This document shows positions 3,210 to 46,196 of a stretch of 64,000 bases of DNA, one piece after another. The notes under the pieces were generated by a model. The model did no database searches. It was not told where the DNA came from and saw only the letters and a list, made by a program, of their open reading frames with translations. Location of the stretch: contig NZ_CP063812.1 of the NCBI RefSeq assembly GCF_015277855.1, positions 930,001-994,000 on the forward strand. Direction: 5' to 3'. This stretch comes from Microbacterium cremeum (lineage in GTDB: Bacteria; Actinomycetota; Actinomycetes; Actinomycetales; Microbacteriaceae). Position 1 is the stretch's first letter. Every line of letters begins with the position of its first letter. The position numbers and the translations under genes were made by a program.

Positions 3210-4985
3210 TCACGAGGCGTCGCGCCGGCCGGTGCCGACGATGCGGCCGTCGTCGATCCGCACGGTGCGGTCGACGAGCCCGTCCGGCACGGCGACGTGC
3301 GAGATCAGCACGACCGCCTGGTCGTCGCGCACCGCGCCCAGCAGATCGACGAGCAGGCGATCGGATGCCGCGGGATCGACGCCCGCCGTCGGCTCGTCGA
3401 GCACGAGCACGGGGAAGCCGCGCAGCAGCGCCCGCGCGAGGGCGATGCGCTGCGCCTGTCCGCCTGAGACGAGGGCGCCGCGCTCGCCGACCCGCGCGTC
3501 GAGCCCGCCGCGCTCCCGCAGCCATCGGCCGAGCCCGACCCGCTCGAGCACCGCCTCGAGCTCGGCATCCGTCGCCGTGTCGCGGGCGAACAGCAGGTTC
3601 TGGCGCACGTCCTCGTCGAAGAGCATCGGATGCTGCTCGCACAGACCCACGGTGAGGCGCACGTCGTCGGGGGCGAGGGCGTGCACCGAGCGGCCGCCGA
3701 TGTCGTAGCCGCCGTCGGTCTCGAGGAACCGCACGAGCGCGTGCGCGAGCGTGGACTTGCCCGCTCCGCTCGGCCCGATGACCAGCAGGCGCTCGCCCGG
3801 AAGGACATCGAGGTCGACATCGCGCAGGGCGTCGGCCGTCGCACCCGGCCACCGGACGGACGCCCCCCGGACGCGCACGCCGTCGCCGAGCGGCGGGGCT
3901 TCTCCGGTCGGGGCGATCCGCTCGCGGACGAGCTCGCGGGGCGCCTCCGCGGGGAGCGCATCGGCGATGCGCTGGGCCGACGCGCGCACCTGACGCCACG
4001 AGGCTGCGGCCAGCGGCACAGTCGCGAACACGTCGAACACCGCCATCGGCACAAGCACGGCGACCGCGAACTCCGGCCCGCCGAGCGCACCAGAAGCCAG
4101 ACCCGGAGCGGCGGCCGCGATCGCGAAGACGGATGCCGCGCCGGCCAGCAGCGAGACGAGCGCGGTGGTTCCGGCCTGCGCGCCGGCGCGACGCACGACC
4201 GCGCGACGCAGGGCGGCGTCCGCGGCCGCGATGCGCGCACGGCTCTCGGCCTCGGCGCCGAACGCCGCGAGCACGTCGAGGCTGCCGAGATGGTCGAGGA
4301 TCGCGTCGGCGAGGCGGCCGCGCAGCGGCGCGATGTCGCGCTCGGCACGGGCACCCGACGCCCAGCCCCACAGCGCCGCGACCGCTGCAGCGACGAGGAG
4401 GCACGCGAGCAGGGCGAGCGCGGCCGGCCACCACACGATCGCGACGAGCACGACGGCGGCGAGGGCCACGAGCGCCGACGACACCAGCGGCTGGACCACG
4501 CGCAGGGGCAGGTTCTGCAGGTCATCGACGTCGTCGACGAGCGCGCCGAGCACGGATCCCCGGCGCGTCCGCGCGAGTCCGTCGGGGGCGAGCGGCACGA
4601 GGCGCCGCACCAGGTCGGCGCGCGTGGCCGCGAGCTGCCGCAGGGCCGCGTCGTGACCGGTGAGCCGTTCGAGGTAGCGGAACACCGCCCGGGAGATGGC
4701 GAAGAACCGCACGCCCACGACGGCAGCCGACAGGTAGAGCACGGGCGGCTGCTCGCTCGCCCGCACGATGAGCCACGCGCTCACGGCGAGCAGCGCGACG
4801 GCGGACGCCTCCGACGCGAACCCGGCTGCGAGCGACCACCAGAGCCGTCGCGCCGGCGGCAGCGCCCCCCGCAGCACGTGGTTCGCCGAGAGGGGAGGTC
4901 TCCCCTCGGTGCCCGTCGCTCCGGCGTGGTCCGGTCGTACGGCGACCTGACCTTTCGCGGTCCCCGGCGGGGATGCGGGGGTCAT
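3210..4985 (-). CDS. cydC: thiol reductant ABC exporter subunit CydC
   Basis: Half of the heterodimeric CydDC ABC exporter, which moves cysteine or glutathione out of the cytoplasm and is needed to assemble cytochrome bd. The membrane domain (about residues 35-310) includes the motif SRAVFRYLERLTGHDAAL seen in CydC. The ATPase part has Walker A GPSGAGKST, signature VSGGQAQR and Walker B VLVLDEP. ATG at 4985 was chosen because it overlaps the cydD stop as ATGA; the frame is open further upstream but there it lies inside cydD. Length 591 aa. It is the last gene of the cydABDC operon. Confidence 0.92.
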   Translation of the reverse strand: MTPASPPGTAKGQVAVRPDHAGATGTEGRPPLSANHVLRGALPPARRLWWSLAAGFASEASAVALLAVSAWLIVRASEQPPVLYLSAAVVGVRFFAISRAVFRYLERLTGHDAALRQLAATRADLVRRLVPLAPDGLARTRRGSVLGALVDDVDDLQNLPLRVVQPLVSSALVALAAVVLVAIVWWPAALALLACLLVAAAVAALWGWASGARAERDIAPLRGRLADAILDHLGSLDVLAAFGAEAESRARIAAADAALRRAVVRRAGAQAGTTALVSLLAGAASVFAIAAAAPGLASGALGGPEFAVAVLVPMAVFDVFATVPLAAASWRQVRASAQRIADALPAEAPRELVRERIAPTGEAPPLGDGVRVRGASVRWPGATADALRDVDLDVLPGERLLVIGPSGAGKSTLAHALVRFLETDGGYDIGGRSVHALAPDDVRLTVGLCEQHPMLFDEDVRQNLLFARDTATDAELEAVLERVGLGRWLRERGGLDARVGERGALVSGGQAQRIALARALLRGFPVLVLDEPTAGVDPAASDRLLVDLLGAVRDDQAVVLISHVAVPDGLVDRTVRIDDGRIVGTGRRDAS

Positions 4986-6868
4986 GCCGGGACCTCGGCC
5001 GTATCCAGGCGGAGCACGGCGTCGGCGACGTCCCGGGCCGACGTGCGGTGAGAGACCAGCAGCACCGTCGCGCCGTCGTCGGCGAGGCGACGGATGCCGC
5101 GCCACAGGCGCGCCTCCGTGTCGGGGTCGAGCGCCGAGCTGGGCTCGTCGAGTGCGATCACGGCGGCGCGCCCGCGCAGGTGCCGGTAGAACGCCCGCGC
5201 GACGGCGACGCGCTGCGCCTGGCCGCCCGACAGCCCGGCGCCCTGCACGCCGAGCTCCAGCGCCGGGTCGAGCATGCCGGCGCACGCGAGGTCGAGAGCC
5301 CGTCGCACGACGGCCGGAGCGGGGTCCGCATCGCCGAGCGACACGTTGGCCGCGATCGTGCCGGCGACGAGTCCGGGCCGCTGCCCGGCCCACGCGAGCC
5401 ACTCCGACGGGGCGAGCCCGCGCACGTCGGCGCCGCACCAGGTCGCGGTGCCCTCGAAGGCAGCGGCTCCGCGCAGTGCCGCGAACAGGCTCGATTTGCC
5501 GGCGCCGCTCGGGCCCTCGATGAGCGTGAGGGTGCGCGGGGGCGCGGCGAGGTCGACGGGGGGCAGGCGCCGGTCGCCGCGGTGCACCCGCACTCGCCGC
5601 AGCACGAGGGCGTCGTCGGCTGGGGGCGTTTCGTCTCGCTCGCTGGCGCTCGCTCGCTCAACGACCGGGGGGTGTGCCAGGGCGTGGTCGGCTCGGGGCG
5701 TTTCGTCTCGCTCGCTGGCGCTCGCTCGCTCAACGACCGGGGGGTGTGCCAGGGCGTGGTCGGCTCGGGGCGTTTCGTCTCGCTCGCTGGCGCTCGCTCG
5801 CTCAACGACCGGGGGGTGTGCGAGGGCGTGGCGGGGTGGGGGCGTTTCGTCTCGCTCAGCGACCGGGGGGAGCGCCGCGGCGGCGTCGAGCACTGCGAAG
5901 ACGTCGTCGGTCGCGGCCACGCCCTCCGCGGCGGCGTGGAACTGCACGCCGACCTGGCGGAGCGGCAGGTAGGCCTCGGGGGCGAGCAGCAGCACGAACA
6001 GCCCGACGGCGAGCGCCAACGACCCGTCGATCAGGCGGAACCCGATCGACACGGCGACGATCGCGACCGAGATGCTCGCGAGGAACTCCAGCGCGAACCC
6101 CGACAGGAACGACACCCGCAGCACGCGCATCGTCTCGCGCCGGTAGTCGTCGGTGACGTGCTCGATGGATGCCGCGGCCCGATGCTGACGGCCGAACACC
6201 TTGAGCGTGGCGAGCCCCTGCACGGTGTCGGCGAAGCGCGCGGCGAGGCGTTGCAGGGTGGTCCACTGGCGCCGCTGGACGGTGCGCGTGGCGAGACCGA
6301 TCAGCACCATGAAGATCGGGATGAGGGGGAGGGTGAGAAGCACCGTGAGCCCCGAGATCCAGTCCTGCCACCACATCACCGCGACGATGATCGGCGTCGC
6401 GATCACCGTCTGCACGAGCTGGGGCAGGTACCGGCCGAAGTACGCCTCGAGCGCGTCGAGCCCGCGCCCCGCCGTCACCGCCAGCCCCGCCGAGTTGCGC
6501 GCGCCGAGCCACTCGGGTCCGAGAGTCCCGAGCGCGTCGAACAGGCCCTCGCGCAGCTGCGTCTGCACGCGTGCGGCCGCCCGCGCGGCGACGGCATCGC
6601 GCGCCCACAGCAGCACGGCACGCAGCGCGACCACCGCCGCGAGCGCCCCGAGGGTCGGCGCAAGCGAGGTGAGAGGCATCCCGTCGATCGCGTCGGTGAC
6701 GGCGGTCGTCAGCAGCCATGCGAACGCGACGATGACGAGCGTCTGCGCGACCGAGATCGCGCCGATCGCGACGAAGAAGCCGCGCGACGCGGTCGCATAG
6801 CGCAGCAGCCGCGGATCGACGGGCTTGCCCGGCATGCGCTCGGGCCCGTCGTCCTGCGTCTCATCCAT
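4982..6868 (-). CDS. cydD: thiol reductant ABC exporter subunit CydD, with 24-residue tandem repeats
   Basis: Partner of CydC in the exporter required for cytochrome bd maturation. The membrane domain spans about residues 25-315. The ATPase domain has Walker A EGPSGAGKSS, signature LSGGQAQR and Walker B VIALDEP. The start at 6868 (MDETQDDGP) is preferred; 6835 is an alternative. Between the two domains (about residues 333-415) the protein carries a 24-residue unit, of type ERDETPRADHALAHPPVVE plus RASAS, repeated three times and begun a fourth time. This is foreign to the family and makes the protein 628 aa instead of about 550. The DNA is a 72-bp tandem repeat (see separate entry). The frame stays intact and the ATPase motifs are complete, so the protein is probably functional. 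Confidence 0.9.
   Translation of the reverse strand: MDETQDDGPERMPGKPVDPRLLRYATASRGFFVAIGAISVAQTLVIVAFAWLLTTAVTDAIDGMPLTSLAPTLGALAAVVALRAVLLWARDAVAARAAARVQTQLREGLFDALGTLGPEWLGARNSAGLAVTAGRGLDALEAYFGRYLPQLVQTVIATPIIVAVMWWQDWISGLTVLLTLPLIPIFMVLIGLATRTVQRRQWTTLQRLAARFADTVQGLATLKVFGRQHRAAASIEHVTDDYRRETMRVLRVSFLSGFALEFLASISVAIVAVSIGFRLIDGSLALAVGLFVLLLAPEAYLPLRQVGVQFHAAAEGVAATDDVFAVLDAAAALPPVAERDETPPPRHALAHPPVVERASASERDETPRADHALAHPPVVERASASERDETPRADHALAHPPVVERASASERDETPPADDALVLRRVRVHRGDRRLPPVDLAAPPRTLTLIEGPSGAGKSSLFAALRGAAAFEGTATWCGADVRGLAPSEWLAWAGQRPGLVAGTIAANVSLGDADPAPAVVRRALDLACAGMLDPALELGVQGAGLSGGQAQRVAVARAFYRHLRGRAAVIALDEPSSALDPDTEARLWRGIRRLADDGATVLLVSHRTSARDVADAVLRLDTAEVPA
5624..5872 (-). repeat. 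72-bp tandem repeat array inside cydD (interspersed repeat family)
   Basis: The motif GGCGTTTCG recurs at 5625, 5697, 5769 and 5841, exactly 72 bp apart. Read on the minus strand, each unit starts GGTCGTTGAGCGAG, continues through a GCGAGCGCCAGCGAGC core and ends GAGACGAAACGCC, followed by a spacer of about 30 bp coding for PRADHALAHPPV. The copy nearest 5872 has a short version lacking the core. The period is a multiple of three, so cydD stays open. The same head and tail occur between genes at 46157-46196, which shows that this is a dispersed element rather than a domain of CydD. Confidence 0.9.
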
Positions 6869-43571: not shown

Positions 43572-43595
43572 CGGGACGACGGTGACGGATGCCGC

Positions 43596-43705
43596 GACCC
43601 CGCGCCGAGGGACCGACACCGTGCCGAGGGACCGACCCCGCGCCGAGGGACCGACCCCGCGCCGAGGGATCGAGACCGTGCCGAGGGACCGACCCCGCGC
43701 CGAAC
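43596..43705. repeat. 19-bp tandem repeat, about 5.5 copies
   Basis: The unit ccgagggaccgaccccgcg recurs at 43605, 43624, 43643, 43662, 43681 and 43700, exactly 19 bp apart. Versions with gacaccgtg or gagaccgtg alternate with gaccccgcg. The period is not a multiple of three. It lies in the 416-base gap between the acyltransferase and VanZ-like genes, which otherwise holds only the palindrome. Confidence 0.85.
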
Positions 43706-46049: not shown

Positions 46050-46070
46050 CATATCGCCGGCATATGCTCC
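46050..46070. promoter_or_regulatory. 11-bp direct repeat upstream of the response regulator
   Basis: CATATCGCCGG (46050-46060) is followed at once by CATATGCTCCC (46061-): CATAT repeats at an 11-bp distance. This is one helical turn, the layout bound by OmpR-type dimers. It occupies the -35 position of the regulator gene. Confidence 0.6.
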
Positions 46071-46079
46071 CCAGTCGCT

Positions 46080-46196
46080 GGGCGAGGCCGGACTGCTCTT
46101 CCGGCCGCTGGGCGAGGGGCTCCCCGGTCGTTGAGCGCGGCCGGACTGCTCCCTCCGGTCGTTGAGCGAGGAGCGCCGGCGACGAGACGAAACGCC
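46080..46196 (+). repeat. intergenic cluster of the interspersed repeat
   Basis: The copy at 46157-46196 starts GGTCGTTGAGCGAG and ends GAGACGAAACGCC, the same family as in cydD. Before it are three shorter head-type copies (CAGTCGCTGGGCGAG, GGCCGCTGGGCGAG, GGTCGTTGAGCGCG), two of them followed by GCCGGACTGCTC, which points to a local duplication. It lies between the regulator and the VanY-like gene and separates their operator sites. Confidence 0.8.

Follow-up and report, generated by a model that had tools for sequence, protein, structure and literature searches.

The cydD gene of Microbacterium cremeum, encoding the thiol reductant ABC exporter subunit CydD, lies on the reverse strand at 4985–6868 (628 codons, with the stop codon at 4982–4984) of the 64,000-nucleotide stretch analysed here, hereafter the window, which covers positions 930001–994000 of a 3.98-Mb, single-contig genome that is 99.98% complete. 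Downstream, on the same strand, lies cydC (3210–4985; putative start), the gene for the partner subunit, whose product scores 517 bits against TIGR02868 (cut-off 329). The CydDC exporter supports cytochrome bd assembly. Within cydD, 240 bp (5625–5864, reverse strand) form an in-frame array of 80 codons, built from copies of an element that we call F1. In gene order, the array begins with a shortened F1 element (5841–5864; 24 bp, without the 18-bp core) and a 30-bp spacer (5811–5840), continues with two 72-bp units, each a full 42-bp element of variant E followed by its spacer (5769–5810 with 5739–5768 in unit 1, 5697–5738 with 5667–5696 in unit 2), and closes with a third full 42-bp variant E element (5625–5666), after which the spacer has diverged. 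Units 1 and 2 are identical at 72/72 bases, and after the third element the spacer grades into the normal coding sequence of cydD, with 6 differences over 66 bases. An earlier, sequence-only reading of this DNA had seen three near-identical 72-bp units plus a shortened fourth; the array stands, but its units are better counted as two identical ones and a third with a diverged end. Exact heads of the element (GGTCGTTGAGCGAG) start at 5653, 5725 and 5797, with a one-mismatch head at 5851, and exact tails (GAGACGAAACGCC) at 5625, 5697, 5769 and 5841; Tandem Repeats Finder (TRF) reports a period of 72 bp, 3.5 copies and 96% matches over 5607–5857.

All unit lengths in the array are multiples of 3, the 72-bp unit being read as 24 codons (VVERASASERDETP). 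The array had been proposed to insert about 75–80 residues into CydD, between its membrane domain and its ATPase domain, while leaving the ATPase motifs intact, and both statements hold: the 80 in-frame codons lie between ABC_membrane (residues 34–295) and ABC_tran (residues 438–577), and the translation contains the Walker A motif GPSGAGKS together with LSGGQ, ALDEP and SHR. With the array included, the protein scores 528 bits against TIGR02857, above the curated cut-off of 435. An AlphaFold model built on 40 aligned CydD sequences (mean pLDDT 82.8, pTM 0.64) is confident in most of the two domains (pLDDT mostly 76–98) and falls below 50 at residues 345–353 and 355–413, so that the linker holding the array is predicted to be disordered.

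F1 also occurs outside cydD. A non-coding copy at 46157–46196, noted already in the sequence-only reading, is present on the forward strand, has head and tail matches and belongs to the variant D type; a short way upstream, at 46126–46139 and inside a 53-bp tandem repeat (46066–46171), is a head with one mismatch. Heads at up to two mismatches number 15 in the window, against a shuffle mean of 1.67 and a shuffle maximum of 5; the tail alone, at the same tolerance, does not stand out clearly from the shuffles (8 matches against 3.99, with 6 of 100 shuffles reaching 8). A search of the window with Rfam at the gathering score returned no match. For the genome-wide search, F1 was defined as GGTCGTTGAGCGAG followed by GAGACGAAACG within 25 bases. 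This pattern matches the M. cremeum chromosome 191 times and its reversed control not once, which bears out the enrichment of the head/tail pair outside cydD that had been set beforehand as a test. A strand bias along the chromosome was considered as well and is ruled out by the totals (93 and 98 matches on the two strands, a few of them overlapping). The cydD element has a 40-bp core that recurs exactly elsewhere in the genome, and the core variants A to E differ in their middle.

Among the places listed up to 870 kb of the genome, 57 F1 elements fall into 26 clusters (300-bp limit), with tandem periods of, for example, 44, 54 and 55 bp; the cydD array is thus one of several F1 tandem arrays in the genome. 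Neighbouring elements less than 300 bp apart in these places are inverted in 14 of 31 cases and direct in 17. Each of three inverted pairs that were folded forms one long hairpin, at –64 to –73 kcal/mol (values that stand without a shuffle control), and two of the three start with GGTCGTTGAGCGAG and finish in its reverse complement, the third having its tails outside. A single cydD copy folds no better than its shuffles (z –0.95). As a separate observation, a convergent spacer at chromosome positions 2753484–2754027 holds four copies of a 145-bp unit that is itself an inverted F1 pair.

Among the 58 genomes searched with the pattern, F1 occurs in 15 of 34 other Microbacterium genomes – five of the 15 with a single match – and in none of 23 from other genera; viral contigs yielded no match. 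In a further set of 19 genomes of interest it was found in 16, most abundantly in G072 (249 matches), G124 (185), G200 (171) and G075 (166), and was absent from G129, G151 and G091. Copy number does not predict insertion into cydD: G200 and G068, with 171 and 79 matches, both have a cydD free of F1, and G129 carries a decayed F1 in cydD, yet no exact match in its genome. REPINs – inverted pairs of REP sequences that form one hairpin and are mobilised by RAYT transposases – offer the closest architectural parallel, since F1 likewise forms inverted pairs with one long hairpin and reaches tens to hundreds of copies. The RAYT half of that system differs: none of 35 Microbacterium genomes, M. cremeum included, has a match to Y1_Tnp (PF01797), while the same search found one in two of 23 genomes of other genera and in five of 14 control genomes. 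As no RAYT mobiliser was found in these 35 genomes, it is from its distribution that we infer the mobility of F1, which on sequence grounds appears to be a Microbacterium family of dispersed, REPIN-like palindromes that are non-autonomous. The inverted pairs also have the terminal inverted repeats expected of miniature inverted-repeat transposable elements (MITEs).

The placement of F1 relative to genes was assessed for 136 elements in 50 stretches around listed places, a part of the 191 from which the window was left out, with genes called by a simple finder that had learnt codon usage from the window. F1 is mostly intergenic and rare in divergent spacers: 62 elements lie in spacers between genes of the same direction, 58 in convergent and 5 in divergent spacers, 9 inside genes and 2 across a gene end. 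Counted by stretch, because tandem copies are not independent, 20 have convergent and 3 divergent placement. Those inside genes are in frame and include four elements in the acidic C-terminal tail of an ABC ATPase, with F1 also in the tail of a second ABC ATPase and at the C-terminal end of an ATP-grasp protein. In the ArgC protein of M. cremeum, a 31-residue in-frame insert (residues 223–253) reads like an inverted F1 pair, one copy of which matches the pattern (chromosome 2326477–2326507; L306:1478–1508). The insert is absent from 7nnq, the solved ArgC of M. tuberculosis, in which the two matched stretches end at 221 and resume at 223.

A DUF993 protein offers another example. This family was found in 66 of 119 genomes, the 30 best of which were read; the corresponding segment is 84 residues long in M. 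cremeum (L255), 29–40 in 25 of 29 relatives and 62–89 in the other four, among them G075 (L256), whose 62 residues read like an inverted F1 pair, so that this variable loop has F1 inserts in two species. Longer inserts unrelated to F1 occupy the loop in three other species (L257–L259). The five F1 variants checked have no stop codon in five of the six frames, so that F1, inserted at a suitable length where a gene tolerates additions, would lengthen the protein rather than destroy it. Of the 146 cydD linkers, 11 were labelled as carrying F1: that of M. cremeum and those of ten further genomes. In these the element is read in both orientations and in two of its forward frames, and never in the forward one that has a stop.

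The linker between the two CydD domains was compared across the genus in 150 genomes taken from the best matches listed among 198 searched, of which 146 could be read (L036, L139, L145 and L156 being dropped). It ranges from 47 to 124 residues, with a median of 61.5, and is longest in M. cremeum. A uniform scan for four dispersed families, termed F1 to F4, found one or more of their arms in 39 of the 146 linkers and in none of 146 equal-length control segments from the same genes; codon-shuffled linkers contained such an arm in 0.8 cases on average. The other 107 linkers are free of F1–F4 arms. Perfect inverted repeats of at least 12 bp occur in 18 linkers and one control, and those of at least 10 bp in 34 and four. 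Under a slightly looser rule, 22 linkers were labelled F4, 11 F1, 4 F3 and 3 F2, and the linkers with a label have a median length of 70 residues, against 56 for the others, as expected from insertion. Insert positions inside the linker differ between families and species. In a loose control, allowing up to two mismatches, 39 of 58 cydD loci have some match in 535 kb of flanks, and one of 20 readable CydC linkers has a match, against 11 of 58 CydD linkers (6.9 kb). With strict motifs, 20 of 22 matches, in 11 of 59 loci, lie inside the linker, which makes up 2.1% of the sequence – a count that is partly circular, as the motifs for F3 to F5 were first read from linkers and two of the 20 matches are to F5. 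The CydD linker is a recurrent landing site for unrelated palindromes whose mobility is suggested by their distribution, most likely because it tolerates them.

The standing of F1 to F4 as families, and the view that in linkers they represent dispersed repeats rather than local inventions, depends on dispersal searches in genomes. F2 has 18 matches in M. cremeum, 15 in G028, 21 in G088, 14 in G122, 30 in G227 and one in G200. With one mismatch allowed, the search for F3 (GTGTCCANGACACGCCG) finds 48 arms in G200, 16 in G221 and none in M. cremeum, G019, G122 or G153, and gives one control match in G166. F3 is secure in two species only (L045, which equals L080, and L079): three of the four F3 labels (L038, L138 and L221) come from the loose rule, the strict one finding it in 1 of 146 linkers, and the genome with the F3-like linker of L038, G019, has no dispersed copies. 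F4 (YCACAACTCCKSA) has 27 matches in G166, 34 in G194 and 19 in G224, 8, 4 and 1 in three more genomes, one in M. cremeum and none in G200; the arm alone is found in seven of eight genomes, and the arm pair with its gap limited to 30 in none of the eight. A subtype of F4 has 42 matches in G111, 18 in G106, 9 in G148 and 0–4 in the other seven genomes. F5 (CTCGGGAGGAGAT), a candidate fifth family present in two linkers, reaches just 4 matches in one genome and 1 in each of two others, and was not counted.

In most carriers, the F4 hairpin sits at a similar offset in the linker, with 40–64 nt between its 16-nt arms, and these arms covary inside the coding sequence of many species (the cydD linkers L177, L178, L184, L201, L234 and others). 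Among 25 distinct arm pairs, core columns 8, 9 and 10 form standard pairs in 21, 24 and 25 cases while changing identity – C–G in 11 and A–T in 10 at column 8, G–C in 18 and T–A in 6 at column 9, C–G in 13 and G–C in 11 at column 10 – whereas columns 1 and 2 pair poorly (10/25 and 18/25). The mean number of core pairs, of 12, is 10.4 within and 8.8 between species, in a set of related species that was chosen by peptide anchors and in which two mis-anchored rows (L206 and L225) were left. In G166, G194, G111 and G106, the arm type in cydD is also dispersed in the same genome, so re-insertion or gene conversion would account for the covariation with no need of selection; the cydD arms of G224 (M. 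hydrocarbonoxydans) belong to a minority type of its genome. Our preferred reading of the covariation is concerted evolution or re-insertion, ahead of selection on the hairpin.

F1 in the CydD linker is not unique to M. cremeum; the array is, among the 146 linkers read. That related CydD proteins would lack the same repeats, on which the earlier interpretation depended, is confirmed by the nearest comparisons: L061, the row most like M. cremeum CydD outside the linker (85%), and its tree neighbour L041 are both free of F1. L115, 82% identical over the whole of CydD, has a single F1, and the CydD search of 198 genomes gave a nearest protein 78% identical over its length. In a quick, linker-free tree of 87 rows with long branches, M. 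cremeum pairs with L041 (a grouping marked 95) and lies away from every other carrier of F1. Four of those carriers, one of them present in duplicate, belong to a group of six rows (97), L044 and L115 fall in a separate group of five (99), and F1-bearing L034 stands beside the F4 carriers L084 and L086 (97). On a rough FastTree tree from about 200 residues, the minimum number of changes is 8 for F1, 2 for F2, 4 for F3 and 9 for F4, a pattern that favours repeated gain and leaves room for losses. The linker of L032/L061 (Microbacterium ureisolvens), itself F1-free, contains the palindrome GCGGGATCCCGC twice. Other linkers have features of their own: those of L198, L199, L208, L210 and L214 are of the type M(Q/R)E or MQD ... 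V(L/M)(Q/H)V and also contain a short inverted repeat, and that of L187, the cydD linker of G203, has a 25-bp perfect inverted repeat.

The account that we favour, to which we give a probability of roughly 0.84, is that a REPIN-like F1 element entered a tolerant, disordered linker of CydD and was then duplicated in tandem, in frame. F1 copies would stand alone or in inverted pairs, chiefly in the spacers that follow genes, often amplified in tandem along with some flanking DNA, and would probably be transposed by an enzyme other than RAYT. In the lineage of M. cremeum, one such element may have landed between the sequences for the membrane and ATPase domains, after which the element and 30 bp of flank – 72 bp, or 24 codons – would have been duplicated locally, probably by slippage or unequal recombination, into the present array. 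The same tolerance would have allowed unrelated palindromic families into this linker in other species and, where a linker tolerates an array, selection would not remove it. The earlier proposal that a dispersed element had become coding sequence and then multiplied in frame agrees with the 191 dispersed copies, the 80 in-frame codons and the restriction of the array, among the linkers read, to M. cremeum; the order of the events, the transposition itself, the neutrality of the insert and the preference for tolerance over targeting are what the account would add to these observations.

Targeting is an unlikely but not negligible competitor. An enzyme with a preference for the linker sequence, or a first palindrome that attracted later ones, would make the linker a mutational hot spot, and this would suit both the presence of four dispersed families at one place and the three F4 arms in the single linker of L086. 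Tolerance fits better, given that insert positions in the linker vary among families and species, that F1 is also found at unrelated sites in DUF993, ArgC and further genes, and that the DUF993 loop holds it in two species. Slightly less probable still is that the linker is kept as a hairpin-coding site, a coding hairpin being useful there, so that the genus recruits, replaces and keeps whichever palindrome is abundant, with the peptide as a by-product. The similar offset and covarying arms of F4 would be expected under such selection, the position of L034 beside L084 and L086 looks as if one filling had replaced another, and the concentration of strict motifs in the linker, partly circular as it is, points the same way. 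Against this stand the 107 linkers without any F1–F4 arm, the poor pairing of F4 core columns 1 and 2, the direct repeats with a weak fold that make up the M. cremeum cydD copies and the choice of the arm set by peptide anchors among related species; moreover, in the four genomes whose cydD arms match their dispersed type, re-insertion or gene conversion suffices. Were that reading true, the selection would act on nucleic-acid structure in mRNA or DNA, for example through co-translational pausing between the two CydD domains, the covarying F4 arms would be its trace and F1 would be one interchangeable filling. Finally, since the region is repetitive, an assembly artefact or a chance resemblance of GA-rich, low-complexity sequence to F1 might be suspected, but this is very improbable in view of the exact 40-bp core elsewhere in the genome, the controls (0/146 segments and 0.8 expected in codon shuffles), units in multiples of three, a single-contig genome and F1 in the cydD of ten other genomes.

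In-frame palindromic repeats are already known; for several families meeting at one protein linker, no precedent was found in the literature searched. The Rickettsia palindromic elements (RPEs), a parallel drawn already in the sequence-only reading, are described as dispersed palindromic repeats of 105–146 bp that add residues in frame to conserved proteins (PMC2229807). F1, too, is dispersed, palindromic and read through in frame in conserved proteins – here CydD, DUF993 and ArgC – and differs, as far as descriptions can be compared, in its size (31–42 bp single, roughly 100 bp paired) and its actinobacterial host. ERIC/RU-1 and NEMIS are presented as non-autonomous MITEs of enterobacteria and Neisseria, in units of about 100–200 bp, that are fused in frame to genes (Delihas; PMC2229807), with target-site duplications given for several; F1 shares with them the character of a small non-autonomous repeat in frame in genes, and differs in lineage and unit size.

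A further likeness is to the GTAG and CGTC REPs, described as small palindromes that occur in pairs or groups, for the most part between genes that converge or run in the same direction, and in some cases intragenic (Di Nocera et al. 2013, PMC3733652), with clusters reiterated together with flanking DNA, a link to RAYT stated for the GTAG type and a REP at about the same site in recB of two Xanthomonas species. These authors suggest that flexible linkers or loops make REP insertions neutral. F1 has the same small size, palindromic nature, spacer bias, occasional intragenic position and reiteration with flank. It belongs to neither type: variants A to E have no GTAG at either end, and the CGTC definition – a terminal CGTC, a stem of 8–9 bp opening with A–T pairs, a loop of 4–5 nt and a CCA tail (PMC3733652) – fails for stem, loop and tail, variant C having on its reverse strand a CGTC two bases from the stem, a stem that opens with G–C, a longer loop and no CCA tail. 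Nowhere in the parts of that paper drawn on here do several unrelated families share a linker throughout a genus, and actinobacteria are absent from its main text. Neither the 23-base core of F1 nor a Microbacterium or actinobacterial REP of its kind was found in the literature searched, subscription journals lying largely outside it.

What one conserved transporter gene provides, across 146 genomes, is a view of small mobile palindromes turning into protein: unrelated families have apparently entered the same disordered linker again and again, F1 doing so in either orientation and in two of its forward frames. The question of which protein regions accept new coding sequence thereby becomes countable, and the genus supplies a natural set of linker-length variants of the CydD exporter. 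It also exposes a REPIN-like family without RAYT, for which a different mobiliser is to be sought. Elsewhere in the window, a 19-bp/57-bp tandem array (CGACCCCGCGCCGAGGGAC) of 5.7 copies occupies 43595–43703.
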